NCBI GenBank assembly: GCA_013306675.1
Contig: JABLUY010000248.1
Span: forward strand, 1-54,433
Length of the DNA: 54,433 nt
Reading direction: 5' to 3'
From: Thraustochytrium sp. TN22
Taxonomy: Eukaryota; Sar; Bigyra; Thraustochytrida; Thraustochytriidae
Part shown: in pieces, positions 6,504-43,433 of the stretch
How positions within the stretch are numbered: the first letter of the stretch is position 1
How the letters are laid out: each line of letters opens with the position of its first letter
The notes under the pieces: model-generated
What the model was told of the DNA's origin: nothing
What the model saw: only the letters and a program-made list of their open reading frames with translations
Database searches by the model: none
Translations under genes and position numbers: made by a program

Positions 6504-7161
6504 TTGGATGCGCGCTGACATATATTCTGAACAATGCTGAACAATGGACAGTGCTGTGTTCTCAAAACCATTACCAACTTACTAAGTCACATCGACATGT
6601 GCCAGCGCATGGTTCGTCACTTATCTTTGCCAGTGCTTGCTGTTGCAAAAGACACCAGCACGACATTGAACTCGTGCACGAAGTGCAGATCGCCCGCGCG
6701 ATGGCGGGTTCGCACACCGAGCCTCCGACGCACGTGAGGTGAAAGGGACGAAGACCTTGGGGCCTTGCTCAAAGTTGGATTCGACGAGGCACACTTCGTG
6801 CACGCCGACGATGGGGCGCACGACGACTTTCAGAATAAAAAAAAAGAAATGTGCTTGGCCACAAGAGAATGGAATTCAGAATCAAAAGGCAAGACGAGTA
6901 GGGACGTAACAAGCTCAGGTGACAGGGACGAAGACCTTGGGGCCTTGCTCAGAGTTGGAACCCGGAATTCGACGAGGCGCACGTCGTGCACGCCGACGAT
7001 TGGGCGCACGACGACTTTCAGAATAAAAAAGAAAGGTGCTTGGCTACAAGAGGATGAAATTCACAGACAAAAAGGCAAGACGAGTAAGGAAGTAATAAGC
7101 TCGCTAGCTAGCTAGTGGTTAGATGGGTCTCTCCCTTCTACAACTAGGCGTAGAGTCAAGC
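6504..7161. other. Intergenic between convergent genes, with tandem duplication
   Basis: The plus-strand gene ends at 6503 and the minus-strand ribosomal gene ends at 7162, so this interval holds two 3' ends. It is clearly less GC-rich than its surroundings. Most of it is the tandem duplication listed separately. No coding sequence is accepted; a 66-codon minus-strand frame (6621-6821) crosses copy 1 of the repeat but is not preserved in copy 2. Confidence 0.55.
6737..7102. repeat. Diverged ~180-bp direct tandem duplication
   Basis: Copy 1 spans about 6737-6916 and copy 2 about 6917-7102. Both share gggacgaagaccttggggcc near the start, then a run containing gtgcacgccgacga, the string gcgcacgacgactttcagaa followed by AATAAAA, then gtgcttggc, and an end in aagctc. 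They differ by substitutions and by an insertion of about 8 bases near 6962. Each copy has an AATAAA-like signal on the plus strand, which may serve as a polyadenylation signal for the gene ending at 6503. Confidence 0.9.
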
Positions 7162-8094
7162 CTACTGCTGCTGGTAGCCGGAGTAGCTGGCGTCCTGCTC
7201 CCACTGCTGCTGCTGCTGCTGCTGGGGGGCGACGGGCGGCTGCTGGGCGGCCGGGGCGGGCATGCCCTCGAAGCCGGCCTGGGCCTCAAAGCCAGCCTGC
7301 TGGGGGGGGAGGCCCTGAGCCTGCTGGCCGTCGAACTGCTGCTGCTGCATGCCGAAGCCAGCGGCCGGGTCGACATCGGCGGTGGCGTCGTACTCAGCCA
7401 TGCCGGTGGCGGCCGGGGCGGCCTGGGCAGCCTGGGCGGCGGCCTGGGCGGCGGCCTGCTCCTCGGCCTGCTTCTCGAGCTCCTCGGCGTCGCGGTAGAA
7501 GAAGAGGTCGACGCTGACGTTCCAGGCCTCGTTCTGCGAGATGGTGCCGCGCAGGCGGAGCACCTCACGGGCGAGCATCCAGTAGATGAGGCCAATGGAG
7601 TGCTTGCCGCGGTTGTTGCAGGGGATGGCAACGTCGACGAAGCGCAGGGGGGAGTCGCTGTTGCAGAGGGCGATGACCGGGATGTTGACGTAGCGGGCCT
7701 CGTTAATGGCCTGCTGGTCAAGGCGCGGGTCGGTGGCGATCAGCAGACGCGGCTCCTTGAAGTTGCGCGTCTTGGAGTTGGTGAAGGTACCCGGGGTGAA
7801 GCGCGAAGACTGGGCCTCGCAGCCGATGTACTGGGCGAGCTTGAGCACAGCGCGCTGGCCGTACGGGCGAGCGGTGACGGCGATGATGTCCGCCGGGTTC
7901 TCGATGGCCACCATGACGCGGGCAGCCAGGCTCAGCTTCTCCAGCGTGCGCTGCAGGTTGATAATGTGCACGCCGTCGCCGTTGCGGCGCCAGATGTACG
8001 GCGACATCTGGTGGTCCGAGTTGGTCGTGCCAATGTGGACCTTGGCGGCCAGCATGCGCTGGATGTCCTCCTCGCGGGGCGAAAGGGCGGCCAT
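7162..8094 (-). CDS. RPSA: 40S ribosomal protein SA (uS2 family)
   Basis: A 310-residue protein starting [10 protein letters not shown] at an ATG in good Kozak context (caccATGG). The whole uS2 domain is present in one exon: the N-terminal [10 protein letters not shown] and SPYIWRR region, the central [16 protein letters not shown] motif, and [18 protein letters not shown] near residue 180. These are nearly invariant in eukaryotic RPSA/RPS0. It is a structural component of the small cytosolic ribosomal subunit, needed for 18S rRNA maturation. After residue about 220 the tail is Ala-rich then Gln-rich (QQQQ runs, [10 protein letters not shown]), which replaces the acidic tail of the animal laminin-receptor form. 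Length is near that of human RPSA (295). No intron, which is notable because this gene carries introns in many lineages. Confidence 0.97.
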
Positions 8095-8769
8095 GGTGCT
8101 TGCGCGGGGGCGCTGCTTCTCCTCCTCCGACGGCCTGCGGCTGCTCCTCCTCGCGCAACCTCGCTTGATGCAGTCTGCCTCCGCCCGCCCCGCCGCGCCT
8201 CCGCCAAGGCTCCATCCAAGCTCCACCACCCGCGCACCCTGCCGGCGCCGCTTCGCGCCGGAAAACCGCAGCCCCGCTTCTGCCCCGCCTTCGCGCCGCG
8301 CGACAGCACAAGCCGCGCGCGGAGCACGCTCCGCGACAGCACAAGCCGCGCCCCGCGCGCGCCGCGACAGCACAAGCCGCGCGCCGGGCTGCGCCGCAGT
8401 GGCAGCTGGCGCCCGCAAGTCGCGCCTGGGCGCGGACAAGTCGGCGCCGGCAGTGGCGGCGCCGGGGGCAAGTGCGCCAAACTTGCGCCAAAGTCGACAA
8501 AGGCAGCGCGGGCACGGCGCGAGCCCGGGCTCGCCAGGCGGCAAGTGGCGCTCGGCGCGGCGCAAGTCGAACTCCGCCGCTTGCAAGTCGAACTCTACAG
8601 GCGCGATGATAACTTAGACAGCGAGCAACAGCCTGAACGAGGAACGGGCTGGAGCCGGAGCTCGCGAGCGAGCTTGGGCGCGGCGCGGCGCGGCGGCGCG
8701 CGGCGCGCGGCGCGCGGCGAGAGCGAGCGCGAGCGCGAGCACGGGCGCGAGCGCGAGGCAGGGCGCAAC
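8095..8769. other. Divergent promoter region between RPSA and the WD40 gene
   Basis: The ribosomal gene reads left and the WD40 gene reads right from this interval, so it must hold both promoters. It has several imperfect copies of a string like cgacagcacaagccgcg between about 8300 and 8390, and a GGCGCGG/GCGCGGCG repeat at about 8670-8720. The frame of the WD40 protein stays open through here and antisense through RPSA, but without a supporting ATG. Confidence 0.55.
8305..8392. repeat. Imperfect repeat of gcgacagcacaagccgcg
   Basis: Four related copies of a unit containing gacagcacaagccgcgc (with variants) lie in tandem or near-tandem about 220-290 bases upstream of the RPSA start, in the shared promoter interval. 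They could be repeated transcription-factor sites or simple slippage; the sequence alone cannot tell. Confidence 0.6.
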
Positions 8770-11700
8770 ATGCAGGGGCGGCGCGCGGCCACCGGCGCGC
8801 GCGCCAGTGAGCGGCGGTCCGGCGCGCGTCGGCCGGCAGCGGCCGCGGCGAGGCCCGTTCGGCCTGAGCGCCTCGGGGCGGCCGCTCGGACGCAGACGAG
8901 GGCGGCGCACGTTCGAGAGGAGGAGGACGGCCCTGCGCATGAGGACGGTGGCCCCGAGCACGAAGACGCCGGCGAAGAGTGTGCTGACGTCGAATGGTGT
9001 CCGCCGCTCGTGGCGCGCCGGCGCATTTCCGCCGAGAGCGAGCGCTTCATAGCCGTCGCGGAGGACAAGGATATTGCCCTGACCGCGGCCGGGACCTCGA
9101 ACTCGCTGGGCAAGCTTCGCGGCCACCGCGAAAAGGTCACGGCGCTTGCCATTTACGGCGACGAAATGGTCTCGGCGGGCAGGGACGCGAAGGTGCGCGT
9201 ATGGAGCCTCACCAGCAAGAGGGAGCTCAGGCGCTTCGAGGCGCCGTCCAGATGGATCGAAGCGGTCGGGATGAACGCGGGGTGGGTGGCAGCCGCCACG
9301 CGCGACGCGGTCCAGCCCATCAAGATCTGGAATCGCCGGTCCAGTCGCAACCCCTTCGTGGCCGGCCGCGGCGTCGGAGACTCCGCCATCCCGCTCTGCC
9401 TTGTCATGGACGAGGACATCCTCGTGGTCGGCTACTCGGACGCCAGGGTAAGGATCTTCCGTTGCCAAGGCGGCGACCTCGTCCAGACGCTGAGCGGCCC
9501 CATCGCGTCCATGGTGACCTTCGTCGCGCTCGGCGCCGAGACGGTCTTTGCCCGCGGCACGGACGACGACGTGATCGCGACCTGGGCCCGCCCCCCTGGT
9601 GACGTCTCTGGCGCGGAGGCCGGGCGCGACGTCTTCAGCTTCCGCAGGACGCAGACGAATGCTTCGACGGATCGACTCTGGCGTCAAGGGACCCTGGCTC
9701 TGGCCGCGGACCTTGGCGACACCTGGGCTACGCGGCACCCGTTGCAGAGCGTGCCCGGGCCTGTGAGCGCGCTCAGGCGCTTGTCACGGCGCGTCTCGCA
9801 GCGGATCATGGGCTCGACTTCAGCGTCGGCTTCCGTGGCGCAGCGGGGGCTCGGCAACGTTTTGGAGGAACCAGAGGACAGAGCGCATGAGCACATGTCC
9901 CAGGACGCCGAGGCGTCTGCAACGCGCACGTCGCACGAGCGGGCGTCAAATCAACAAGCCGGGTCGTCAGCAACGCGCACGTCGCACGAGCGGGCGTCGA
10001 TCCGGTCCTCCTTGTCTCGAAGCCGGCGGACGTCTCAGGACGCGTCACGGAGTCTCGCAGAGCTTAGCAAAGGGACCTTCGCGAGGAATGATAGCATTTT
10101 CGCCGCCCCCGACCGGAAAGACCACAAGAGCATCGTGGTCTACTCCTCGCGCACGGGCGAGGAGCTGGCGCGGCTCAAGGGCCACACCGAAAAGGTGCTT
10201 GCGCTTGCCGTCTACGGCAGCGTGCTGGTGTCGGCCGGCAAAGACCGGACGGTACGAGTCTGGGACCTGGATAGCAAGTCGGAGCTCAGGTGCGTGGATT
10301 CGCCTTCCGAGTGGATCATGGCAGTCGGCATCAACGCGCGTTGGGTGACGCTCGTAACAAACCACATGCGTAAGCCCGTGATGATCTGGGCGCGCGGCAG
10401 CTGGGCCGAGCACGAGGCAAAGATCGAAGACAAGGTCGGCCACCCCTCGTGTCTCGCCATGAACGAGGACACCATCGTGGTCGGCTCTGAGGACGGCATC
10501 TCCCGGATCTTCTCGTGCTGCGATGGCGCTTTTATCGGCGCGCTGCGCGAGCGCGTCGAGGGCCGCGTGGATGGGCTGGCGCTGGCAACGGCCGAGGGCG
10601 CCTCCAAGGTCTTCGTCATGGGCCGTGACCGGCGGCGGGTCAAGACCTGGTCCGCCACGGCCGATGGCACGCGGTTCGAGCTGTGCGAGCCGGACGCCGG
10701 CCCCGAGGACCACGCCGAGGTCGAGAACCTCTGGGACAGCGGGCTGGTGGCGACCGCCATGATTGGCAAGGCCACCTGGGCCTTGAGGGACGCCCAGGGG
10801 TTCAACCCGGATGGCGTCGCGGCGCATGGCGTCTCGGGCGAGCCCGCCTTCCTCCGCGCGCCCGACGACTCGTTGAGCCCGGTCCAGGGGTCCCTGCTCG
10901 CCATCGGTGGCAATAGGGTCGCAGTCGCCGGCCTCGACGCCCTAATCCGCGTGTACGACCGATCCGAGGAGTCCTGCCCTTTGGTGACTCATCTGCTGGG
11001 CCACGGCACCGAGATCACCGCCATGAGTGCCTGCCGGGACCACCTCGTCTCTGCCAGTGCCGCTGACGGCGAAGTCAGGGTCTGGGACCTCATCGAAGGC
11101 ACGGAGGTGTTCTCCCGCGACCACCACGACGCAGGCCCGCTGTGGGTGGCTATCAACTCCTTTCGCTTCGTCACGGCCGGCCAGGATGGTATCGTGCTCT
11201 TCAGCCTCGACGGCGACTTCGAGCACGTCTGCGGCTATGACCCCGAGGTCTCGCTCACGAGTCTCGCAATGGCCGAGTCCATCTTCTGCGTTGGTTTCGA
11301 GGACGGCCGCGTCGGCGTCTACCGCTGCGACGACGGCCATCAGGTTTGCTACCTGTCTGCGGGCGGCAGCGAGGAGGCAGCCATCACCGCCCTCGCGGTC
11401 TGCGACGCCTACGTGCTCACCGGCGACGAGGGCGGCAACGTCCTTCTTTGGGACCGCGAGAGCGACATGGAAGTCGCAGACTGCCCGGTCTCGCTCGGCG
11501 GTCCCGAGCCCAGACAAGAGGGCAGCGCCGTGACCGCCTTCTGCGTGGGCCAGGCGCCAGACAGTGACGAGGAATTCTCCGGTATCGTCGCCACCATTCG
11601 CGGCGCCCCGGATCCTACCTTCCGCTCCTGGAATCTCGGCTCCAGCTTCACGCCCAAGATCTTCGATGCGGCCTGCAACTCCGTCACCTCGCTCGTAGAG

Positions 11701-11883
11701 ACCACGGTGGGCGACCAGACCTCCTTCATTTGTGCCACGGCTGCGGGCGAGGTCTTCTTCACGCTGCCCATCCCGTTGACCGACGCCGCCTCGCAGATAT
11801 CGCCCAAGACGGCGGCCCAGAACTCCTCCGATCCACGAAGCCGCAACAGCGGCAGTCACAGCGGCAAATTTCTGCCCTCTTGA
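8770..11883 (+). CDS. WD40-repeat protein, paralog of the downstream NACHT-WD40 protein
   Basis: A 1037-residue protein. The frame is open back to 7123, but the only nearby ATG is at 8770; upstream is the RPSA antisense strand and promoter. After an Arg/Ala-rich and acidic N-terminus come three WD40 blocks, at residues about 88-310, 433-690 and 701-1005. They contain clear blades such as KGHTEKVLALAVYGSVLVSA followed by KDRTVRVWDL, and the recurrent phrase CLAMNEDTIVVGSEDG–RIF–C. The same phrasing recurs in the gene at 14238 (CLAMDETRFIVGFDNGEARIF), so the two are paralogs. No NACHT or TIR part is present. A Ser/Arg-rich linker (about 380-432) includes an exact duplicated 29-base stretch encoding ATRTSHERAS. 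WD40 propellers are interaction platforms; no partner can be named. Confidence 0.88.
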   Translation: MQGRRAATGARASERRSGARRPAAAAARPVRPERLGAAARTQTRAAHVREEEDGPAHEDGGPEHEDAGEECADVEWCPPLVARRRISAESERFIAVAEDKDIALTAAGTSNSLGKLRGHREKVTALAIYGDEMVSAGRDAKVRVWSLTSKRELRRFEAPSRWIEAVGMNAGWVAAATRDAVQPIKIWNRRSSRNPFVAGRGVGDSAIPLCLVMDEDILVVGYSDARVRIFRCQGGDLVQTLSGPIASMVTFVALGAETVFARGTDDDVIATWARPPGDVSGAEAGRDVFSFRRTQTNASTDRLWRQGTLALAADLGDTWATRHPLQSVPGPVSALRRLSRRVSQRIMGSTSASASVAQRGLGNVLEEPEDRAHEHMSQDAEASATRTSHERASNQQAGSSATRTSHERASIRSSLSRSRRTSQDASRSLAELSKGTFARNDSIFAAPDRKDHKSIVVYSSRTGEELARLKGHTEKVLALAVYGSVLVSAGKDRTVRVWDLDSKSELRCVDSPSEWIMAVGINARWVTLVTNHMRKPVMIWARGSWAEHEAKIEDKVGHPSCLAMNEDTIVVGSEDGISRIFSCCDGAFIGALRERVEGRVDGLALATAEGASKVFVMGRDRRRVKTWSATADGTRFELCEPDAGPEDHAEVENLWDSGLVATAMIGKATWALRDAQGFNPDGVAAHGVSGEPAFLRAPDDSLSPVQGSLLAIGGNRVAVAGLDALIRVYDRSEESCPLVTHLLGHGTEITAMSACRDHLVSASAADGEVRVWDLIEGTEVFSRDHHDAGPLWVAINSFRFVTAGQDGIVLFSLDGDFEHVCGYDPEVSLTSLAMAESIFCVGFEDGRVGVYRCDDGHQVCYLSAGGSEEAAITALAVCDAYVLTGDEGGNVLLWDRESDMEVADCPVSLGGPEPRQEGSAVTAFCVGQAPDSDEEFSGIVATIRGAPDPTFRSWNLGSSFTPKIFDAACNSVTSLVETTVGDQTSFICATAAGEVFFTLPIPLTDAASQISPKTAAQNSSDPRSRNSGSHSGKFLPS
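9919..9998 (+). repeat. 29-bp direct repeat inside the WD40 gene linker
   Basis: The string gcaacgcgcacgtcgcacga followed by gcgggcgtc occurs at 9919-9947 and again at 9970-9998, exactly 51 bases apart, so the reading frame is kept. It encodes ATRTSHERAS twice in the disordered linker between WD40 blocks. Perfect identity points to a recent duplication. Confidence 0.92.
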
Positions 11884-14237: not shown

Positions 14238-17200
14238 ATGGAGGAGGAGACTGCACTGGTCGTGGCGGCGGCGCAGGGCTGCGAGGCGCAGCAACGGGAG
14301 GTGGAGCAGGCCCTGGAGGCCAGTGGCGTGCGCGTGGTGAGAGATCCTCTGGAGGCAAGCGCCGTGGACAGGGTCGTGGTGTGCGCGAGCAGGCCGCTCC
14401 AGGCAGAGGTCCTCGACGAGGGAAGCCTGGCCGCGCAGGCGATCCGGGAGGCGAGTGAGAACGGCAACCTCAGCGCGGTCGTGGTGGACCCCGAGATGCC
14501 GCGCGAGACGACGCACTGGGCAGGCGCGATGCTGCTCGTAGGACAGCTGAACAACCTTGTATGGATGTCCGACGCCAGCGACGGCGCCACGGCCAAGGGC
14601 GACGACGAGACGGGCCACTCCCGGTCTGGCCGCACACGCCACGGCGAAAGAGCTGCGCGCGACCTCGTCGCTGCGCCACGCGACACGCGCAGCTGGGAGG
14701 AGATGCTTGAGGAGAAGAACGGAACCGAGCTGCGCGACAGTCTCCTGAGCGCCATCACTACCTGGGCGTCTTCCTCCGCCTTAGACCCCGTGTCCGGCAA
14801 GGTGGTCCTCCACCTCACAGGTCGGCCCGGCGTCGGGCTCTCGACCGTCATGGCCATGCTTGCGACGGGCCAGACGCTCCGCGACAACGGCGAAGCAGAG
14901 TGGCCTCCCGTGGCGGCCAAACACTTCTTCCACAGCCTGGCGCGGGGCCGCGACGCTCGCTCGGCGCTGCTCTCCCTTGCGGATCAGCTGAGAATCGCCA
15001 ATGCCGCCTTCGCAGAGGCGCTCCGTTTGCCGACTGTGGCGGAGGCGCAGGGCATTGGCGTAAGGGAGCTCTTTGACCTCGTCATCGCGACACCCGCAGA
15101 AGTGACAAGTCCACAGGACGACAACGTCTCGCTCGTGGTGATCGACGCGCTCCACGAGGTCGCGGACCAGGAGCAGCGCAGCGAGCTGTGGAGCGCGCTC
15201 ATGGCCTGGGCCAGCGAAGCGCACAAAGGGGCGCACCGCCCGTGGCTTCGTTTTGTGGTCTCCGGGCGCACCGACGACGAATGGATTGTCTCAGATTCTC
15301 AGAACGCTCGCCCCATCAAGGTGGATGACTTCAACTTATTCTTGGTGGACGATATGCGCGACTATCTCCAGCAAGGCCTCGAGGACGTGGTTGAGCCCGA
15401 CGGTCTTGAGGCCGTGCGCGAAGAGATGCTCAACGCGTATGTCCCCGGCGGCAGGTTTGCGGGTCGCTTCGACCATCTCATCTGCGTTGTGGGCCTCCTT
15501 AAAGCCGCAAAGCGGCGTACAGGAACCTTGTTGGACACCGATGTGGCCATGGGCGCCCTGACCACCTTCCTCCGGAACCTTTACGCGCACGTTTTCGAAA
15601 ACGTCTGGCTCGCGCTCGGTGACACGGATTTCACCGCTTACAACAGGTTTGTAGGGTGCCTACTGGCGGCCGAGGACGCACTCCCCGTGGAGCTCCTCGC
15701 CGATGCGGCCGGCGTGAGCTCGGAAAACGTGCGCGAAGCCATCCAAGCCTCAACAAAGCTGCTGCACCTCTGCAGAAGCGACGACACCGTCACATTGCGC
15801 AGCGCAGAGGCGCGGGCATGGCTGCTGACGAGTGGCTATTCCAGGGCGAGCGGCGCCAATGGGACCGGCGTCTCGCGCGGGCCGGCGGACCTCGGCCCTG
15901 GCCACGAAGCCATCAGCGGGTGGACAACAAGCGACGATCAGACCGAGTACGCCCTTTTCCACACGTTTCACCACCTCGCCAAGGCCCACGACGTCAGCAC
16001 GATCAAGTCGCTTCTGAGCAACTTCGACTGGCTCGCCGCACGCGCTCAAACCGCCGGTTCCGCGGCGCTCGCGCAAACGCTTCTCGATGCCGCGACCGTG
16101 CCGGAGTTTATCCTGGCACGCGCCAACGGGGAGCTAGGCCGCGAGGCCGAGCTGACGCTGCTCGCCCTTCAGCACAGCCTCGAGGCGCTTTGTCTGGACC
16201 CCATGGAACTCGCCGGACAGCTCCTCGCGCGGCTTCCGCACGAGCTGCCGCTCGCGCAGAGCGCGCGGACCTTCTCTGAACGGAGCTGGCTGCGCCCGCT
16301 GCGCCCATCCATGGAACCTGTCCCTAGCCTGATATCGTCGGCTCGCCCCCAGACCCAATCGGAGCCTCCCGCGCTGGTGGACGCGCCCGCCCGCCAAGTC
16401 TACCGCCGCTCCGAGCCTCGCACCCAGGGCGAGCCCGGCAGGACCTCACAGGCAGGAGTCACTCTCAGGTCGGTGCGCAGCAGCATCATGCGGACCTTCG
16501 GACCCAGGGCGGCCAGCGCCTCCAGGTCCTCCACTCCGGACCAGGATGGCACGCTTACGCTTGGCGGCATTGTGGCCATGAACGACCACGTCTTCGCCAT
16601 GCCTGCTGGTGGCAACCGCGGAGACGTCGCGGTCATCTCCCTTCACAGTCGCGAGGAGGTTCGACGCCTGCCCGCCGCAACGGAGACTGGCGCGCACGTC
16701 ACCGCGCTGGCCATGGATGGGCGCATTTTGGCCGTGGGCGCCGCTGACGGCGCCGTTCAAGTCTGCGACACAGAAACCGGCCGGCAGCTACACGTGTTCG
16801 TGGAGCACAGCCATGCCGTGCGTGCCCTGGTTCTGCGGGGTCAGTGGCTCGCCGTCATTTTTGAGAGCGAGTCTCTGGTCTCTCTGAGGGACCTGCACGC
16901 GGAGCCTGACGGCCCCTCTCCGAACGAGATCACGATTCGCCTGGGGCGCTACCTTCCGAGTTGTCTCGTCATGTGCGCCAGCGGCCTCGCCGTGGCAACC
17001 GAGGCCGGCAAGGTGCACGTCTATGAGTTGCCGAACACCCGTCTCCTTTTTACGGAGGGCGAGCCGAGCTCGGACAGATTTCAGTGCATCACCGCCATGG
17101 CTGCGCACGGCGACCTGCTGGCCCTGGGTGCCGAGTCGGGCCCCATTGTTCTCTGGAACCTGAGCACGCGCCAGAAGCTCGCCGATTTGGCCGGCCATAG

Positions 17201-20200
17201 CGACTCTGTGCAGACCCTTTTGCTCAACAGCAGGATGCTCATCTCCGGGAGCGAGGGCAGGCTGGACGAAGCGCCACTCCGAACCTGGTCTGTGTCCACC
17301 GGCTCCCCCATCGACACTCTCGCGGTCCCTGGCGGTGTCACCAGCCTCGCCAGCGACGGGACCACACTGATCTACGGCACCCGAACTGGCGACGTATGTT
17401 TCGTGCAGGTCGATGGGCTCCGGGAGCTGCCAAGCATGGTCCTTGGGAGTGGAGACCGGGACCTCGAAGACGAGGCGCCCGACGTTGCAGATGAGGCGCC
17501 CGACGAAGAACAGGCGCATGACGACGAAGAAGATCTACGAGCGCAAGAGCGTCGTCTCGCGGAGGACGCGCAGGACGAAGAGGCGTCATTCTGCTACGAG
17601 CTCAATCTCGAAGAAGCGGCACACCTCCGCGCCGAGACTGGAGGAGCGGTCACGTGGGATCACCTGTTCACAGGCGCTGCTTCTGCCGATGGAAAGCTTC
17701 ACAACGAGGATATCATCCAGACCGCAACTACTGCGCAAGTGCAGGAGCGGGAGCAAGAGCTGCTGCAGGAAGATGCAGAGGAGGACACGGAGGGTGACCT
17801 TCAAGGCGAGGACCAGATTTTGGAGGTGGCGGTGGAGAGTGAGGGCGCCCCTCTGGTTGCCATTGGCAGCGACTTCATCGCCTACGCGGGCGAGGACAAC
17901 CGCATTACGGTCACACACAGGAGCACGGACGTCCAGCTCCCTCCTCTAGAGGGGGAGCACGCCGACCGAATCAACTTTCTCGAGCTGTGTGGCAGCTACC
18001 TCGTCTCGGCAGACATGGACAGCACCATTTGTGTGTGGATGCTTGACTCCGACATCGGCAGGCTCGTGGCCTCTTTCGACAAAACCCGTCACGGGAGCAA
18101 GATCGAGAGCATTGCGGTCCGGCAGCATTCAAGCTCAGGCATCGTGCTGATTACCGTCGGCATCGGCCACTTCGCCAAGGTGACGTGGCTGGGCCCGGAC
18201 GGCGAGACGAGCAGACATTGCCTGGAATTCAAACTCGCGGACAGACCGACCTGCTGCGCCATGGGGAAGGACTGCGTCGTGTTTGGCTTCCGGAACTGTG
18301 CCGTCCTGTACGACCTCACCAAAAGGGATCCTGCCAGGCATCCCAAGACTCTGGACACTGGGAAGGCCGCAGCCACGGCCGTTGCTGTGCACAAGGGGGA
18401 GGTTGTCGTGGCTACCCACGGTGGTGCCCTGCGCACGTACAAGAGGACGTCGTCTCGAATGGTGCCAAGGGCCGACGGCGTGAGCGGCAATGTCGTGGCG
18501 CTGTGGCGCACTCGGGACCTGATCGCCGCCGCCACGACCGGCGGTCAAGTCGTCACATTTAAGCTCCTCACGAACAACGCTTGGGCTCATCAGCGTACCT
18601 CTCTGGTACCTTCCGCGGTGGGGGGTATCGTGTCCATGGCCGTCGACGCGGACGAGGAGCTCATCCTTTGCGGCACTCGTACCAACCACGTGGTGACCTT
18701 TTTCACCGCGTTCACGCCATCGCCGCCATCCACATCGTCGACGCTGCCATCGTCAACGCCGTCGCCACCGACCTCTTCGCCCCCTTCGTTGGGGCCGTCA
18801 CCGCCGTCGCTGCCGCCGCCTTTGTCGCAGCAGCCACCGCCGCTGCCGCCGCTGCCGCCGCACGCGACCAACGTGCAGCAGCGTTCGACGTCCACCTCCA
18901 AACGGCGACCTTCGCTGCGCTTCAGCGAGGTGCAGACTCAGCTCGACGCCGGGCCGGTGAAGGGCAGTCAAATTGCGCGCAGCGCAAACGCCATCGCGGT
19001 CGCAGGCAGCACGGGCGGCAAGAATCATGTCATTTACGTGCTCTCCCTTCTGAGTGGCGAGCTGCTTCCTCCACTCGCAGGGCATACCAAGGTGGTCACT
19101 GACCTTGCGATGCACGGGGACTACGTCGTCTCTGGCAGCCTGGACTGCAGCGTGCGCGTGTGGGACCTCAGGGAGGCGGCATTATCGAGGCCCAGCCCAG
19201 GCTGGCACTTCAGCTTCGAAGTGCCCAAAGGCAGCATCATCAAATGTGTCGGGCTAAACTCAAACCTGGTTGCCTGCGCAACGTGGAACCAGAAGGAGAG
19301 GCGCGGCACCGTGTACAGCTGGCGTCTCGACTCTTCGGCGCCCCACGCAGAGCAGGACTGCAAGGCAAACCCTTTGTGCATGGCCATGGACGAGGACGCC
19401 ATCGTTGTCGGCTACGAGGACAATAGCGCACGTGTCTTCCATTGCGAAACTGGCGAGCAGGTGATCAAGCTCGACGGCTTCCACGAGTCTCACGTGACGG
19501 CAGTCGCGCTCTGCCACAACCACGTGCTCACCGGCTGCCACCAAGGCTACACGTTTGCGTGGCCGCTCACCCGAACTCATGAGGGAACGCTCGAGGTCGA
19601 ATGCCCGGATCGCCTTGTGCCACGACTGGAGGACCCGATTGGTGCGCTGTGGACGGACGGCAACCAGGTGGTCGTGGCCAGCGCAGGCCAGCGAGACACG
19701 ACGATCCGCACTTGGTCGCTGTCCGAGTCCGCAAACGTGGCCATGCCCGTGCGCAAGGTCGCCTCCGTCAATGCCATCGTCACGGACGACATCGGTGACC
19801 TCATCTGCACCACGGCAGACGGCGCCGTTGTCTACGTTCCGTCTGACCGCGACTTTGCGCACAAACCGCAGATGCTGCGAAGGCACCCCAGCGGTATCTT
19901 CCACGATCTCAAACAGAGGTTCGCGCCTCGTTCCCGGACGACTGCTTCCGAGATCGACACCACTCATCAGCTCGACGTCGACGTCGACCGCGAGGAGGAC
20001 GAGAACAAGCATGAAAAGTGGGAGATGCCCGACGCGATCCACGTTCACGACCTGGATTCGGCGCTCGTCGACAGCGACGACGAGCGCGCACACGACGCCG
20101 CCGAGGACCTCGCAGCGTCCAAGCACGATCTGGACGAGGCCAAGGACCCGGCAAATGCAGCAGTGGGGCCGCTGGCTGACATCCTCCGCCCTGGGCCGAA

Positions 20201-22442
20201 CGAAGGTCTCGGCGAACACGTCGCCGCGAACGATACAGTCCTAGCGGCGAGCAACGGAACTCGCTTCGGCACGCGCGTAATCGTCGTCTACTGTCAGGTA
20301 ACTGGCGTCGAGCGCTTCCGGCTGGATGGGCATACCAGAGGCGTCACGGCACTGAGGATCTCGGGTGACCGTCTCGTGTCGGGCAGCATGAACGGCGAGG
20401 TCTTCGTATGGGACCTGTCGAACGGCGGCCTCCGCGACTGCTTCCTTATCGAGCCAAGCTCCACGAGCACGGCGGCGGCAAATGTTGTTGGAGTTGGTAT
20501 CTCCGGCTCGAGGGTCGTCGCTGCGACTACCAGCAGCGGCATTCACGTCTGGGATCTCGACCGGGCCGTGAAGATCGCCTCGCCGGGTGGCAACCTGCCA
20601 GAACGCCCGCGCTGCCTCGCAATGGACGAGACTCGTTTCATCGTCGGCTTCGACAACGGCGAAGCGCGCATTTTCAGCTGCGAAACAGGCGCCCCGGGTC
20701 CGGTGCTCTGCGGCTGTGATCCAAATGAGGTGACTGCGGTGGACATTTACCGCGATGTAGTCCTCACTGGCGGACACAAGGGGTCCATTATACTGTGGAG
20801 CGCCGACGCGTCGTTCGCGAGCCTTACGCGCGTCGTAGGTGAGCATAAAGGCAGTGTCGGTGCGCTGTGGACAGACGGGCTTCGAGTCATATCGGGAGGC
20901 AACGAGATTACGGACATGACGGTGCGGGAGTGGTCTCTGAGCCCCGCAATATCCTCCTTCCAGCATCCCGTTGACATTGGCCGGATCACGTGCGTCATCT
21001 CAACCTCCGTGACCGGCCTCATCTGCGCATCCGACCGAAGCACGGTCTCCATTGCTCAGATTCCGGACTCTGCTTCGACGATGGATCGCGCACGACGCGG
21101 CTCGCGCAGCCAAGTCCCGACACAGCCACGAGCACGACGCGAGTCACGAGCACGACGCGAATCACGCAGGCGCTCCGCGGTGCGGTCGACAGCGGCACTT
21201 GCCGAGCAAGATCCTGTGCAAGAGACTGACAGAGAGTTGAGGGGCCGCCACACCTCGCTGGCGGTCGAGGCAGGCCAAGGCCGAGGCCAAGGGCGTCCTC
21301 GCTCGCTTTCTCGGCAGTCGCGCACCTGCTCGATGGGACGCGGCTTCAATCAAGTTCAGCGCTTCTTGAGAGGGATGCGCTTCAGGTCTGTCAGCACGCC
21401 ACAGATCGCGGAGACTCCGGTCGAGGAAGTGGAGGAACCGCAGCCCGAGACCCGTCGACAGCGCAGGAGCCAAAGCTTCCAGGTCTCCCTCTTGCGCCGA
21501 GGCTCGAGCTCCGCCTTGCGCCGTGCTCTCTCTGCCTCTCGCCGTGACGCCTCCGGATTGATTGCGCAGAGCGACCTCGGCTCGTACGCCCCGGACCTCT
21601 TCGTGCAGAGCATCGTCCCTGATGGCGCCACCGTGACGGTAGCGAGCGAGACCAGCATTGAAGAGTTTCATGAGGACGGCCAAGCCCACATCCTGCACCA
21701 GTGCGCGGGCGACGCGGCCATTACCAGCATCTCGCGCACGGGAGCGAACCTCGGAATCGGCCGCGCGGATGGAGAGCTCCACATTGTCCAGCTGGAAGAT
21801 CGCAATGTCACGGCGAGCGTCAAGACCATCGATGCGCATCACGGGCCCATCAACGTCGTTACCATGGACGGGTCCTGCTCCGAGGTTCTCTCTGGAGGTC
21901 ACGACGGCGCACTGAACGTCTGGTGCGCTCGCACGGGTGCCAATCTCCTCCGCCTGCAGGGCCATGCCACGCCCGTTACGGCCGCCGTCTGGGACGCCGA
22001 GATCATCATCAGCGGCGGCCTCGATGGCCTGATCATTGTCTGGAACCGGGCCTCGGGCCAGGAACAGAAGCAGCTCCGCTGCCCTGAGGGCTGGCCGGTC
22101 CTCTTGGGCTGCGACGAGGAGAACATTTGGGTCCGCACCAGTACTGGCAAGCACCTCGCCTGGGATCGCGCCAGCGGCGGCCAGCGCAGCCGCTTGCCCA
22201 GGGGCATGGATTGCAAGCAAGGCCCATGGCTCGTCCGCACTCGCCCCCGCATCCAGGACAAGTCTATGATCTGCTTCCCCGGGCCGGCCTCATCGAGGGA
22301 TGTCGGCATTACGCTCGATTCTCCCGTGCAGTTACGGCAGGCCTTTCTCTCACGCTCGAAAAACATCATGGCGGTCAGGGACGATGGCGGCCGCGTTCAC
22401 CTCTTGCAGACCGTGCATGCCTCAGCGACACCTGACTACTAA
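14238..22442 (+). CDS. Giant TIR-like–NACHT–WD40 (NLR/STAND-type) protein
   Basis: A 2734-residue single-exon protein; the ATG at 14238 has perfect Kozak context. Residues 1-113 look like a degenerate TIR-like domain: a VVVCAS strand, a following helix, then AVVVDPEMPRETTHWAG, which resembles the 'VV–P–M–W–G' end of protist and invertebrate TIR-like domains. Residues about 185-540 are a NACHT domain: P-loop GRPGVGLST (195-203), KHFFHSLARG and LADQL as in fungal NWD proteins, Walker B LVVIDALHEV (299-308), FVVSGR (sensor-like, to 344) and a winged-helix-like region ending near 530. The P-loop lysine is leucine (L201). Five WD40 blocks follow at about 770-1060, 1195-1490, 1573-1870, 1985-2275 and 2454-2732, each near the size of a seven-bladed propeller. 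They are separated by acidic, proline-rich or Arg/Ser-rich linkers. Family knowledge: such STAND proteins sense signals and oligomerise, often in immunity or cell death. The role here is inference. Confidence 0.88.
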   Translation: MEEETALVVAAAQGCEAQQREVEQALEASGVRVVRDPLEASAVDRVVVCASRPLQAEVLDEGSLAAQAIREASENGNLSAVVVDPEMPRETTHWAGAMLLVGQLNNLVWMSDASDGATAKGDDETGHSRSGRTRHGERAARDLVAAPRDTRSWEEMLEEKNGTELRDSLLSAITTWASSSALDPVSGKVVLHLTGRPGVGLSTVMAMLATGQTLRDNGEAEWPPVAAKHFFHSLARGRDARSALLSLADQLRIANAAFAEALRLPTVAEAQGIGVRELFDLVIATPAEVTSPQDDNVSLVVIDALHEVADQEQRSELWSALMAWASEAHKGAHRPWLRFVVSGRTDDEWIVSDSQNARPIKVDDFNLFLVDDMRDYLQQGLEDVVEPDGLEAVREEMLNAYVPGGRFAGRFDHLICVVGLLKAAKRRTGTLLDTDVAMGALTTFLRNLYAHVFENVWLALGDTDFTAYNRFVGCLLAAEDALPVELLADAAGVSSENVREAIQASTKLLHLCRSDDTVTLRSAEARAWLLTSGYSRASGANGTGVSRGPADLGPGHEAISGWTTSDDQTEYALFHTFHHLAKAHDVSTIKSLLSNFDWLAARAQTAGSAALAQTLLDAATVPEFILARANGELGREAELTLLALQHSLEALCLDPMELAGQLLARLPHELPLAQSARTFSERSWLRPLRPSMEPVPSLISSARPQTQSEPPALVDAPARQVYRRSEPRTQGEPGRTSQAGVTLRSVRSSIMRTFGPRAASASRSSTPDQDGTLTLGGIVAMNDHVFAMPAGGNRGDVAVISLHSREEVRRLPAATETGAHVTALAMDGRILAVGAADGAVQVCDTETGRQLHVFVEHSHAVRALVLRGQWLAVIFESESLVSLRDLHAEPDGPSPNEITIRLGRYLPSCLVMCASGLAVATEAGKVHVYELPNTRLLFTEGEPSSDRFQCITAMAAHGDLLALGAESGPIVLWNLSTRQKLADLAGHSDSVQTLLLNSRMLISGSEGRLDEAPLRTWSVSTGSPIDTLAVPGGVTSLASDGTTLIYGTRTGDVCFVQVDGLRELPSMVLGSGDRDLEDEAPDVADEAPDEEQAHDDEEDLRAQERRLAEDAQDEEASFCYELNLEEAAHLRAETGGAVTWDHLFTGAASADGKLHNEDIIQTATTAQVQEREQELLQEDAEEDTEGDLQGEDQILEVAVESEGAPLVAIGSDFIAYAGEDNRITVTHRSTDVQLPPLEGEHADRINFLELCGSYLVSADMDSTICVWMLDSDIGRLVASFDKTRHGSKIESIAVRQHSSSGIVLITVGIGHFAKVTWLGPDGETSRHCLEFKLADRPTCCAMGKDCVVFGFRNCAVLYDLTKRDPARHPKTLDTGKAAATAVAVHKGEVVVATHGGALRTYKRTSSRMVPRADGVSGNVVALWRTRDLIAAATTGGQVVTFKLLTNNAWAHQRTSLVPSAVGGIVSMAVDADEELILCGTRTNHVVTFFTAFTPSPPSTSSTLPSSTPSPPTSSPPSLGPSPPSLPPPLSQQPPPLPPLPPHATNVQQRSTSTSKRRPSLRFSEVQTQLDAGPVKGSQIARSANAIAVAGSTGGKNHVIYVLSLLSGELLPPLAGHTKVVTDLAMHGDYVVSGSLDCSVRVWDLREAALSRPSPGWHFSFEVPKGSIIKCVGLNSNLVACATWNQKERRGTVYSWRLDSSAPHAEQDCKANPLCMAMDEDAIVVGYEDNSARVFHCETGEQVIKLDGFHESHVTAVALCHNHVLTGCHQGYTFAWPLTRTHEGTLEVECPDRLVPRLEDPIGALWTDGNQVVVASAGQRDTTIRTWSLSESANVAMPVRKVASVNAIVTDDIGDLICTTADGAVVYVPSDRDFAHKPQMLRRHPSGIFHDLKQRFAPRSRTTASEIDTTHQLDVDVDREEDENKHEKWEMPDAIHVHDLDSALVDSDDERAHDAAEDLAASKHDLDEAKDPANAAVGPLADILRPGPNEGLGEHVAANDTVLAASNGTRFGTRVIVVYCQVTGVERFRLDGHTRGVTALRISGDRLVSGSMNGEVFVWDLSNGGLRDCFLIEPSSTSTAAANVVGVGISGSRVVAATTSSGIHVWDLDRAVKIASPGGNLPERPRCLAMDETRFIVGFDNGEARIFSCETGAPGPVLCGCDPNEVTAVDIYRDVVLTGGHKGSIILWSADASFASLTRVVGEHKGSVGALWTDGLRVISGGNEITDMTVREWSLSPAISSFQHPVDIGRITCVISTSVTGLICASDRSTVSIAQIPDSASTMDRARRGSRSQVPTQPRARRESRARRESRRRSAVRSTAALAEQDPVQETDRELRGRHTSLAVEAGQGRGQGRPRSLSRQSRTCSMGRGFNQVQRFLRGMRFRSVSTPQIAETPVEEVEEPQPETRRQRRSQSFQVSLLRRGSSSALRRALSASRRDASGLIAQSDLGSYAPDLFVQSIVPDGATVTVASETSIEEFHEDGQAHILHQCAGDAAITSISRTGANLGIGRADGELHIVQLEDRNVTASVKTIDAHHGPINVVTMDGSCSEVLSGGHDGALNVWCARTGANLLRLQGHATPVTAAVWDAEIIISGGLDGLIIVWNRASGQEQKQLRCPEGWPVLLGCDEENIWVRTSTGKHLAWDRASGGQRSRLPRGMDCKQGPWLVRTRPRIQDKSMICFPGPASSRDVGITLDSPVQLRQAFLSRSKNIMAVRDDGGRVHLLQTVHASATPDY
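18715..18872 (+). repeat. Proline/serine low-complexity linker in the NACHT-WD40 gene
   Basis: Imperfect ccatcg/ccgccg repeats encode a run of Ser, Thr and Pro (PSPPSTSST, PPSLPPPL, PPLPPLPP) between the second and third WD40 blocks. It is probably a flexible spacer. PPLPP-type strings could bind SH3 or WW domains, but nothing here shows that. Confidence 0.8.
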
Positions 22443-27303: not shown

Positions 27304-27395
27304 ATCAATCATCACGTCCTCGCGATCATTGCTTACCAAGCTCTTGTCACTCGGACGTGACCGGCAAAATGATGCAGCTCGAGGCGATCGTGTAC

Positions 27396-27510
27396 GACGA
27401 GGTGGACGAGGTGGACGAGGTGGACGAGGTGGACGAGGTGGACGAGGTGGACGAGGTGGACGAGGTGGACGAGGTGGACGAGGTGGACGAGGTGGACGAG
27501 GTGGACGAGG
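27396..27510. repeat. 9-bp tandem repeat (gacgaggtg)n
   Basis: About twelve perfect copies of gacgaggtg in the CAND1 5' region. All three plus frames and the minus strand are open through it, giving (DEV)n, (RGG)n and similar translations. It ends about 350 bases before the CAND1 ATG. Confidence 0.95.
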
Positions 27511-27719
27511 ACAAGTGCGTAGACGTCCAGCGAAAGCCTCGTTTTGCGGCCGCCGCGGGTCGCGTTGCGTTGCCTCGCCTCGCCTCGCGTCGCGCAGCGC
27601 CAGGCCGGCACCGAGGCGTCGACCCCGGCGCGACCCACCGGCGCGCTCCCGAAAGATACCGGCGAGGGCGGCAGAACGCGAAAGGACTCTCGCGTGCGGC
27701 GGCGCGGGCGGCGGCGCGG

Positions 27720-27805
27720 GCGGTCCGGGGGCTCGGCGCGGCGCGGCGCGGCTCGGCGCGGCTCGGCGCGGCGCGGCGCGGCGCGGCTCGGCTCGGCACG
27801 GCGCG
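27720..27805 (+). repeat. GGCGCGG/GGCTCGG imperfect repeat in the CAND1 leader
   Basis: A run of cggcgcggcgcggctcggcgc-type units ending about 60 bases before the CAND1 ATG. It is strongly G-biased on the sense strand, like the leaders of several other genes in this window. Confidence 0.8.
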
Positions 27806-27862
27806 GCTGCGCGGCCGCGGGCGAAGCTCGGTGCGGTGCCAGTGGCGGGGTTGGCGGCGACC

Positions 27863-30800
27863 ATGGCGGGCGCGCGCGAGGTGAGCGCGCTGCTGGAGAA
27901 GACGCGCGACTACGACAAGGATGAGCGGTACATGGCGGTGAACGACCTGTGCCGCGGGCTGGAGGGCGACGTGAAGATGGACATGCAGCTGGAGCGGCGC
28001 ATCTGCTCGGCGATCCTGGAGCGGCTGGACGACAGCTCCAACGACGTGCAGACCGTGGCGGTGCGCTGCCTGGCGATTTTGGTCAAGAAGGTGGAGGAGG
28101 CGCAGGTGCGCGACATTTGCAACAAGCTGGCGAATCTGATTCTGTCCGGCAAGCCGGACCTGCGCGACATCTACGCGATTGGGCTCAAAACGTGCCTGGG
28201 GACACTCCCGACGAGCATGGGGCCCAAGATCGCCACGGACCTCTCCTCGCGGCTGCTGGGCGGCGTGGGCATGGACGAGGACGAGAGCATCAAGCTGGAG
28301 TGCCTCGACCTCTTGACGGACCTCATCAAGTTTTACGGGCACGCGCTGACGTCGGAGCACAGCAACATGTCGACGACGGCGCTCCAGCAGCTGGCCTTTC
28401 CCAAGCCGGCGGTGCGCAAGCGCGCCGCAGCCTGCCTGGGCCGGCTGGCTACGGTAGTGTCGGACGACCTGCTGGACCGCATCATCCGCACGCTCCTGGA
28501 GCAGATCGAGAACCCCAAGCCGGGCAGCGACAAGCGGATGCTGATCCAGACGATTGGCACAATCTCGCGCATGGTGGGCTACCGCCTCGGATCGCACCTG
28601 CAGCGTATCGTGCCGCTCTTTCTGGCGTCCCTCAAGTCGCCCACGGATGAGTCGATGCAGAACGAGGCGGCTGATGAGCTGCGCGAGAATGTGCTGCACG
28701 CCTTCGAGTCCTTCGTGACGCGGTGCCCGCACGAGGCGGCGCCGCACATCGCGGAGATTCTGGCGCCGACGCTGGCCTTCCTGCAGTATGACCCCAACTA
28801 CCACTACAATGATGACGAGGACGACGAGGGCGGCGACGACATGGAGGACGGCGAGGACGAAGACTACGAGGACTATGACGACGACGAGTACTCGGACGAG
28901 GATGACTCGAGCTGGAAGGTGCGGCGGGCCTCGGTCAAGGTGGTGCGGTCCGTGGTCGTCTCGCGCCCGGACATTTTGCCGGAGATCTACGCCAAGTGCG
29001 GCGACCTCGTGCTCTCGTGCTTCCGCGAGCGCGACGACAACGTGCGGCTGGACCTGGTGAGCTGCTACTCGGACCTGCTGCGCACGGTGCGCGGCGGCGC
29101 GACGGCGGCGGGCGCCGGCGCCGCCGCAGCGCGGGGGTCGAGCGACAAGGCGCCGTCCGAGTCGGCCGTGGTGGCCAACGCTGAGGTGCGCGCGCGGATT
29201 GCGCAGGACGTTCCCAAGATCGTGCGGGTGACGAGCAAGGTGCTGCGAGAGAAGAAGGTGGTCAAGACGCGCACGAGCGCCTTTGACCTGCTGCAGGAGC
29301 TTGTCCTGCTGCTGGGCGGCGGCCTCGAGGACCATCTGCCCAGCCTCGTGCCGCTTCTGGTGGACTCGTTGCGGCTGGATCGCGACTCCTCCCTCATCTT
29401 CTCGTGCCTGCAGTTCGTCGGCAAGCTCTTCGAGACGCACAAGCCGGCGCGCATCCAACCGCACCTGGGCAAGCTGCGCGACCCGATTCTGGCGTGCGCC
29501 GGTGCCGAGTGGTACAAGATCGCGGCCGAGTCGCTGCGCGTGATCGCCGTCATGGTGACGGTGTTGCGGCCGGGCGTGACGCGAGCGGCGGCCGGCAAGG
29601 ACCAGGAGGACGTGACCATGGGCGACGCGGATACGGACGCGGCGGCCAACTTTGACTGCTCGCCCTATGTTCGCCCGTGCTACGACGCCATCCTGCCGCG
29701 CCTGGAGACGCACCACATCGACCAGGAGATCAAGGAGTGCGCCATCTTTGCGGTCGGCTCACTCTTTGCGCGTTGCGGCGACATGCTCACGGCGGAGCTG
29801 CCCACCGTGCTGGCGCTGCTGCAGGAGCGTCTGCGCAACGAGATCACGCGGCTCCCGGCGCTGCGGTGCATTGAGGAGATCGCCTCGTCGCCGCTGCGCC
29901 TCGACCTGAGCGCCGTGATCGAGACCCTGGTGAACGACCTGGTGCAGTTCCTGCGCCAGCAGAGCCGCACGCTCAAGCAGAACTCGCTGTCGACGCTTCG
30001 TGAGCTGATTCGGTCCAGCCCGACCTCGGTGTCCACACCGCTGTACAAGGAGGCGCTGGAGAATGCCGCCAAGCTCATCGACGAGCGCGACCTGTATCTG
30101 AGCCAGACGGCCGTGGCGCTCTGCATCACGGTGCTGCAGGACGCGCCCGACAAGCAGGAGGTCGTTTCCATCTGCGCCGCTACCGTCATGCCGCGCTGCG
30201 TCGAGCTCATGACCTCGTCCCTCCTGCAGAGCGGCGGGTCCACGCTCGACACAGTGCTTCAATTCGCGCGCCACCTCGTGGTACTCGACATGCCGCCGCT
30301 CGGCTACGACCAGGTGCTGGGCATGGCCATGGCCCCAGCGCAGGACCCGGCCGCCAAGCTCTCCAAGAGCGCAGTCGCCTCGCTCGCCCGCTGCGTCGGC
30401 GTCGCGTGCACTTCGCAGGCGGACGCCTCGCGCCGCGACGCCACGGTCCGCCAGCTCATCGCCGACGTGAAGCGGCAGGCGCCTTCGGCGCCCAGCGGCG
30501 GCGCGGGCGCCGTCATGCTGGGTCTGCTCTCGCTCGGCGAGATCGGGCGCGACGTTGACCTCGCCGCCACGGGTGCCGACGCGCACGAGACCGTGCTGGG
30601 CTGCCTCGACAGCAAGTCGTGCTCCGAGGAGGTCAAGTCCGCCGCCGCCACGGCGCTCGGCAACCTCACGCTCGGCAACATGCCCACGTACCTGCCGCTT
30701 CTCATGCAGGCTCTCCACGAGCGCACCGAGGAGGCGCAGCAGTATCTGCTGCTCAGCTCGCTGCGCGAGGTCATCGTGCGCCACAACAGCTCCAAGGCCG

Positions 30801-42933: not shown

Positions 42934-43433
42934 CCTCGCGCTCCGCTCCTCGCTCGCCGCCCTCGCGCTCGCCGCCGCGCCCTCGATCCGGCTTTGCCGC
43001 GCTTTGACTTCGCCCCGATTCGCTCCGCCTGGATCCGGCCCGCCGCGATCGAGCGCGCAGAGGCGGCGGGGGCGCGGAACTCTCCCGCCGCCCGCGCCGG
43101 CCCCCCTGCGCCCACTGGCGTGTGCCTCGCCCGGCGCGGGGGGGGCGCCGCTGCCACCGGCGGGGCCAGTGGGCCAGGGGGGGCGTATCCTGGGGCGGGA
43201 GGGACTGCCCGCGCCCGCGGGGGGCAGGGGGCGCTCCCTCGGCCGCACTGGGCCCGGGGTCCCGGTCGTGGGACGGACGAGCAGCATGGGACGCGCCGCT
43301 CTCACTGTCACCATCAGTGTCAGGGCGTCTCAGGCTCGCTCTGGCCAGCAGCCGCAGGCAGCAGGCAGAGCTCCTGGGCAGCGCCGTCGCCGCGGCGGCG
43401 GGGGGCGTGGAGCGCAAGCAGCTATCGCTAGCT

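Follow-up and report, generated by a model that had tools for sequence, protein, structure and literature searches.

A strongly diverged, probably switch-disabled relative of the TIR–NACHT–WD40 receptor-like genes of Thraustochytrium sp. TN22

Does a single-celled protist encode receptors with an NLR-type layout, in which a TIR domain, a NACHT nucleoside triphosphatase (NTPase) and WD40 propellers share one chain, and is the long gene described here one of them? The question was raised by a contig of Thraustochytrium sp. TN22 (JABLUY010000248.1, positions 1 to 54,433; this whole stretch of 54,433 nt is the window, contig C164 of the 453 contigs in the 37.9-Mb genome, G000). A first-pass annotation had read an open frame in it as a protein with a degenerate TIR-like N-terminus, a fungal-style NACHT domain with a winged-helix-like end, and five WD40 blocks joined by linkers of different composition. 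We refer to the 2734-aa product of 14238..22442 (forward strand) as the window protein and to its gene as the window gene. The proposed layout was right for a gene family of this genome, with TIR and NTPase in one frame at no fewer than 22 loci, but as a receptor the window protein itself is doubtful: its Walker A lysine and most conserved TIR columns are gone, and its repeats are not internally conserved. The gene and the parts of its N-terminal half are as follows.

14238..22442, forward strand: whole gene, ATG at 14238 to TAA at 22442, 2734 aa, intron not required
14238..14582, forward strand: putative decayed TIR-like domain, residues 1–115, from hhalign profile comparison, Pfam TIR being absent
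14793..15215, forward strand: STAND/NACHT-class NTPase core (NPHP3_N), residues 186–326, from a Pfam profile match
14820..14846, forward strand: Walker A motif GRPGVGLST, residues 195–203, Lys replaced by Leu, from comparison with 19 aligned relatives
15132..15161, forward strand: Walker B-like motif LVVIDALHEV, residues 299–308, family DALDE changed to DALHE
15660..15752, forward strand: weak helix-turn-helix-like stretch, residues 475–505, from HTH_15 and GntR matches below cut-off
15936..16082, forward strand: weak APAF-1 helical domain, residues 567–615, from a Pfam match below cut-off

The single open chain was borne out. Under independent bases at 66.4% GC, 2734 open codons are expected by chance with a probability of approximately 1e-28, and the possibility that the frame is an artefact was dropped on that ground. 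Codon-position GC was of coding type in all seven slices of the gene (≤1.2 kb each; 0.59–0.73, 0.44–0.56 and 0.70–0.82 at the first, second and third positions), and by its open codons and composition the gene is not an obvious pseudogene. Bacterial contamination was also dropped, given the 37.9-Mb genome and the eukaryotic neighbour genes.

Two-way searches placed the window gene in a TIR–NPHP3_N–WD40 family of its own genome. A genome search with residues 1–790 returned 26 rows, the window gene and 25 others (best E 1.3e-25; L021 and L030 are one locus), and 17 of the 25 aligned from residue 193–225 to at least residue 659 at 26–30% identity. The reverse search, with the NTPase and helical core of the canonical member L016, gave 51 segments that collapsed into 43 loci, fragments included, and recovered the window gene at E 3.3e-15; WD40 repeats follow the shared core. 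A TIR_2 match lay in the same open frame at 22 or more of the 43 loci, a lower bound, since 24 of 123 TIR_2 rows were picked by contig and the locus of L016 itself is not among the 123. These loci are not necessarily genes, and near-identical copies are possibly haplotypes. The sequence comparison thus shows the window gene to be a strongly diverged member of the genome's own TIR–NPHP3_N(NACHT)–WD40 family.

The window protein was aligned with 19 relatives. L048 and L021 (near-duplicate, N runs) and the partial or other rows L020, L030–L034, L036 and L037 were left out, and longer versions of some omitted loci were used. At E ≤ 1, NPHP3_N was matched by 19 of the 20 aligned rows (best 2.1e-18) and TIR_2 by 17 (best 2.4e-14), the window protein being without a TIR match; all 19 relatives carry GK[S/T] in Walker A. 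The window protein is 27% identical to its nearest aligned relative. In the NTPase tree its branch was 4.31 long against a median end branch of 0.39 (eleven times); the divergent L035 (4.2) and L052 (3.29), from a Burkholderiales metagenome-assembled genome (MAG), have branches of similar length. It sits as a long branch inside an open fork and meets L038 as long branches do.

The claim of a fungal-style NACHT at residues 185–540 held for the class of NTPase and not for the NACHT family proper. NPHP3_N (PF24883) matched residues 186–326 with 36.4 bits against a cut-off of 24.8 (E 7.5e-9 to 1.7e-8 in fragment searches; NPHP3_N was not among the best 25 of 44 families in the whole-protein Pfam scan), and PF05729, NACHT itself, gave no Pfam match to the window protein. 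For the winged-helix-like end only the weak HTH_15 and GntR matches were found, and HTH_TANC1 was matched by 7 of the 20 aligned members, the window protein not among them. The PADLOC and NCBIfam profiles gave no window-protein match at E ≤ 0.01, and a phmmer search of residues 140–790 against the PDB gave chance matches only (best E 0.039).

The motif GxxxxGK[ST] is not found in the window protein, where GRPGVGLS places L201 at the position of Lys in 19 of 19 aligned relatives. Residue 201 is encoded by CTC. Neither lysine codon shares a base with it at any position, and one sequencing error would therefore not account for the change. The Walker B-type motif DALHE keeps the first D and last E of the family DALDE and has lost the middle D. 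In sum, K201 is changed to L and D306 to H, while G195, G198, G200, D303, E307 and R344 are kept. When conserved columns were defined as the same residue in at least 17 of 18 relatives, with L035 set aside as divergent, the window protein kept 28 of 46 columns in the NTPase, 20 of 33 in the helical part and 1 of 8 in the TIR; L035 kept 26 of 46, 20 of 33 and 4 of 8, and retains the P-loop lysine. The core of the window protein is therefore kept about as well as that of L035, and the losses fall on the P-loop lysine and on most of the TIR motifs. The first-pass annotation had overlooked both the absent lysine (GRPGVG-L-ST) and the membership of a gene family.

The degenerate TIR-like N-terminus found no Pfam TIR match and weak support from profile comparison. 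Pfam TIR and TIR_2 were absent at E ≤ 10 for residues 1–140 and at E ≤ 1 for residues 1–706, in HMMER searches whose filters drop most weak matches. No HET domain was among the Pfam matches of residues 1–140; the Toprim (E 0.088) and TraT (E 0.18) matches of this segment were taken as chance. With hhalign, the TIR profile of the 19 relatives scored 39% against residues 1–140 (E 3.1e-4); 100 shuffles reached at most 9% (E 3.5e-3), and 35 further 140-residue pieces of the window protein at most 0.4%. Without the shortened TIRs of L029 and L038 the score was 10% (E 3.1e-3), above 60 of 60 shuffles. These E-values are for a single comparison, and the 39% and 10% profiles use alignment columns that had included the window protein.

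The strongest comparison was with L027 and L049, whose N-termini hold a tandem of TIR-like domains; the first of the pair is degenerate in both and matches the TIR profile, at 87% and 91%. A two-sequence profile of these first domains scored 58% against the window N-terminus (E 1e-4) and beat 60 shuffles. L027 and L049 group together in the tree (99/95). The window protein keeps a single TIR column, that of E71, which lines up with a glutamate found in all rows and stands beside gaps. The TIR profile of the relatives (14 rows including L052) matched solved SEFIR/TIR proteins, among them Cat1, TIR-1/SARM1 and RPS4, at E 1.1e-5 to 0.04, the last 4 of the 25 rows of that match list being unrelated proteins. 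The conserved TIR glutamate of the relatives aligns with the WCxxE glutamate of Cat1, which we take to be the NADase glutamate. On the flavodoxin/TIR-like fold proposed for residues 1–115, prediction of residues 1–120 alone gave strand/helix alternation at a low predicted local distance difference test score (pLDDT 55), and a Foldseek search with the predicted N-terminal fold gave 0 of 761 matches at E ≤ 0.001, no TIR among the best 50, and TraT on top at E 0.023. The most economical reading of these comparisons is that the window protein keeps only a decayed TIR of the L027/L049 first-domain type.

Beyond the core, the claim of five WD40 blocks and of acidic, proline-rich and Arg/Ser-rich linkers stood.

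16545..17582, forward strand: propeller block B1, residues 770–1115, from WD40 profiles and block alignment
17805..18812, forward strand: propeller block B2, residues 1190–1525, after an acidic linker, from WD40 profiles and block alignment
18930..19877, forward strand: propeller block B3, residues 1565–1880, after a Pro/Ser-rich linker, from WD40 profiles and block alignment
20130..21107, forward strand: propeller block B4, residues 1965–2290, from block alignment
21525..22439, forward strand: propeller block B5, residues 2430–2734, after an Arg/Ser-rich linker, from WD40 profiles and block alignment

WD40 and propeller models covered residues 813 to 2643 approximately (Pfam, best 25 of 44 families). 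All 10 pairs of blocks aligned above the best of 50 shuffles, B2–B5 narrowly (48 against 45). B3 and B4 were 34% identical over 288 residues (score 319, shuffle maximum 51) and are, from this likeness, a duplicated propeller. By residue composition the linkers were acidic at 1068–1193 (33% D/E), Pro/Ser-rich at 1506–1560, acidic at 1895–1985 and Arg/Ser-rich at 2288–2430. Mean pair identity among the WD repeats found was 0.35.

Many relatives showed a different array type. Their WD40 repeats have a period of 40 residues, and mean pair identity reached 0.92 in L011, 0.91 in L019, 0.89 in L018, 0.82 in L048 and 0.73 in L026. It was at least 0.50 in 15 of 20 relatives and 0.32–0.43 in the remainder (L049, L017, L029, L035 and L038); in L011, L018 and L019, 15–16 repeat pairs were identical in DNA. 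Variation was scored among repeats of this one genome rather than between strains, and so is no population test of selection. It covered the 15 arrays, restricted to repeats with a successor at a distance of exactly 40 residues (145 repeats and 651 pairs). The highest nonsynonymous variation (pN) among the 40 columns was in columns 8, 24, 10, 7 and 26 (0.605 to 0.439), the next column having 0.299. Columns 8, 10, 24 and 26 had a pN of 0.534 and a synonymous variation (pS) of 0.462 (column 24 alone had pN below pS), against 0.163 and 0.333 elsewhere. When L011 and L015 were dropped as near-duplicates, the top four variable columns of the 13 remaining arrays were exactly 8, 10, 24 and 26, and V9 and D25 were little variable (0.184 and 0.014). 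Within single arrays, all four columns were in the top six in 5 arrays, and three of them in 8.

In the fungus Podospora anserina, diversifying selection acts on codons 7, 9, 25 and 27 of the hnwd repeats, on either side of codons 8 and 26, which are under purifying selection (PMC2873952, PMC1805685). By position around the conserved V and D, the four diversifying codons correspond to columns 8, 10, 24 and 26; the mapping follows the repeat layout given in those papers and a HET-E repeat, and the variable columns were already known when it was drawn. PMC4986451 describes NLRs of fungi with repeats of high conservation. The relatives thus resemble the fungal HNWD proteins (het-d, het-e and het-r; HET–NACHT–WD40) in having a NACHT-class NTPase with WD repeats, internally conserved arrays, and most variable columns that correspond to codons 7, 9, 25 and 27. 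They differ in an N-terminus that is TIR (TIR_2 in the relatives, a putative decayed TIR in the window protein) rather than HET, and in their 40-residue repeats. The window gene differs further, in lacking a conserved array (0.35, relatives 0.32 to 0.92) and the P-loop lysine. An incompatibility role is known in the fungus and none is known here. To judge from the repeats, the arrays of the relatives bear a strong likeness to the fungal system, through homology of the module or convergence. The label fungal-style, whose sense had not been stated, therefore suits the arrays of the relatives and not that of the window gene.

TIR–NB–WD40 layouts are already known from a red alga and from amphioxus. 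TIR was reported in 23 of 58 NB-WD40 proteins of Chondrus crispus (PMC7145615), and TIR–NB-ARC–WD40 proteins in amphioxus (PMC2575513). The domain set, as taken from these descriptions, is the same (TIR, STAND module, WD40), but the modules are described as NB or NB-ARC, not NPHP3_N, and the window gene, itself degenerate, carries five propeller blocks. Among titles and abstract openings, in a search that left most subscription journals outside, we found no paper on TIR–NACHT–WD40-type receptors in thraustochytrids or labyrinthulomycetes; the parts at hand of PMC4986451 and PMC10732462, which name stramenopiles beside NACHT and TIR, describe no such thraustochytrid receptors.

The bacterial L052 shows, by eye, the same TIR–NPHP3_N–WD40 layout, with a TIR-like start, a GKS P-loop and WD-type repeats in frame, and is 32% identical to L016 over residues 256–582 of L016 (the NTPase). 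It differs in lying on a short MAG contig with the gene end missing; aligned pairwise with the window protein, it shows 26% identity. It is a possible bacterial source of the family, or a contaminant. No relatives were confirmed on viral contigs with the family alignment and L052 as queries.

Other STAND NTPases of the same genome (NWD1-like, NACHT–TPR, NACHT–Ank and TCAD9–NACHT proteins) share the NTPase class, and L042 and L046 also WD40; where named, their N-termini differ (DUF4062, TCAD9/APH), and most have other repeat types. Their layouts (L041, L042, L044, L045, L046 and L036) include NACHT–TPR, DUF4062–NACHT–WD40 (L042) and NACHT–ankyrin. The frame of L036 starts inside the NTPase core, after the P-loop, and continues into leucine-rich repeats. 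L039 and L043 combine TCAD9 and APH-type matches with NACHT, and L043 has ankyrin repeats as well. TCAD9 (in Pfam, 'Ternary complex associated domain 9') is typical of bacterial conflict systems. A frame at L041:7189-9387 (reverse strand) combines a ubiquitin fold with TIR_2 and adjoins the NACHT–TPR gene. The TIR repertoire as a whole was large: 123 TIR_2 matches at E ≤ 0.001, 114 of them over the cut-off and approximately 99 outside NACHT–WD40 loci, with clusters on contigs C288, C160, C407 and C447. One family copy (C3:4209-5388) is in fragments with in-frame stops and is likely a pseudogene.

Upstream of the window gene and in the same direction lies a second WD40 gene.

8767..11883, forward strand: WD40-only neighbour gene, part of frame 7123-11883 with its start set by eye, best genome match to B3–B4

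Its propellers were the best match found for B3–B4 (35–42% identity, E 5e-17 to 3e-15; next C54, 2.7e-12; 61 of 131 candidates scored), ahead of the arrays of the family. It had WD40-type matches only, with no TIR or NTPase among 25 of 30 Pfam families. The first part of its frame (approximately 7.1–8.7 kb) had deviating codon-position GC and may be non-coding in that frame. The gene may be part of the same module as the window gene. The other neighbours are eukaryotic and ordinary: a CAND1-like gene (27329–31738, forward), a CAMSAP CKK-domain gene (33416–37018, forward) and an aspartyl protease gene (41392–43314, reverse). Elsewhere in the genome, on contig C124, a 3044-aa PfaA-type polyunsaturated fatty acid (PUFA) synthase frame adjoins a divergently oriented 2083-aa frame with PfaA-type matches, presumably the OrfA/OrfB pair of thraustochytrids.

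What, then, would the window protein do? From their families, the canonical relatives would act as STAND receptors: the WD40 array would bind a ligand or a partner protein, the NACHT module would exchange ADP and ATP and so allow oligomerisation, and the clustered TIRs would cleave NAD+ or otherwise signal, leading to cell death or defence. The window protein is probably a switch-disabled, unusual relative of this receptor-like family and would be unable to run the ADP/ATP cycle normally. In human NLRP3 the Walker A substitution K232A lowered ATP turnover approximately 3-fold and abolished ASC specks (PMC9633759), and a normal nucleotide switch is therefore unlikely in the window protein. We tentatively favour, at rather less than even chances, a non-switching sensor or scaffold, or a dampener, working with intact relatives: it would offer five binding surfaces and, by way of the NACHT/helical core that it has kept, pair with relatives whose catalytic sites are intact. 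In plants, sensor/executor pairs (PMC8813719) offer a precedent for receptors that work by way of a partner.

Several points weigh against this reading. The pairing is proposed by analogy only. The K232A protein retained approximately one-third of its turnover (PMC9633759), so that a protein without the Walker A lysine may still bind nucleotide. Loss of TIR function may be incomplete, given the alignment of E71 with the conserved glutamate, although that column lies next to gaps. Neither wear of the TIR nor divergence of the repeats is special to the window gene: L029 and L038 have shortened TIRs and keep GK[ST], and 5 of 20 relatives have repeat identities below 0.50, L017 (0.32) falling below the window protein. 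Finally, the structure prediction of residues 1–706, from a two-sequence alignment of the window protein and L052, reached a pLDDT of 37.6 and was not used.

Among the alternatives, it is somewhat unlikely that the window protein is a former receptor recruited to a cell-structural or trafficking role, with five propellers as a binding platform and immunity no longer involved. Its divergent, non-homogenised repeats, the long linkers of three kinds and the very long branch would fit such a housekeeping scaffold, as would its best Pfam propeller matches, which are to scaffold-type WD40 families (among the best 25 of 44); however, such Pfam names reflect generic WD40 likeness only, conservation persists over much of the NTPase and helical core, and in sequence the gene is closest to receptor-like genes. 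A working NLR-type receptor, as first annotated, in which a propeller ligand would trip the nucleotide switch and TIR-type signalling all within the window protein, is quite unlikely: the domain order of the family, Walker B residues D303 and E307, R344 and the alignment of E71 speak for it, but the leucine in Walker A, the missing TIR match and the single TIR column kept speak against it. Decay under relaxed selection after duplication, the frame being open by chance or recency, is the least likely; the long branch, the lost catalytic residues, the broken copy on C3 and a third-position GC of 0.77 (0.87–0.90 in two conserved neighbours, although 0.74 in another) must be set against 8.2 kb without a stop at such low identity to the nearest relative, which is hard to square with neutral drift, coding-like composition in every slice, and core columns kept about as in L035, which has its P-loop lysine.

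The non-switching sensor or scaffold can be extended to the whole family, in a version that we consider unlikely as it stands. A unicellular stramenopile would have a TIR–NACHT–WD40 system for recognition that is hypervariable, evolves in concert and agrees with HET-D/HET-E by position, and the window gene would be its specialised non-signalling arm, dead in P-loop and TIR, sensing or dampening in trans with its five propellers beside the WD40-only companion.

Thraustochytrids are grown for docosahexaenoic acid (DHA), and are available in culture with methods for transforming them. Should the family function as its sequences indicate, recognition by hypervariable propellers would operate in a unicellular heterotroph that is neither fungus, plant nor animal, with the same four contact positions per blade in use as in fungi, and it would become testable whether such receptors arose independently or spread through bacterial STAND genes. 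The window gene would then be an example from nature of a receptor whose nucleotide switch was lost while its recognition surface was retained and multiplied.

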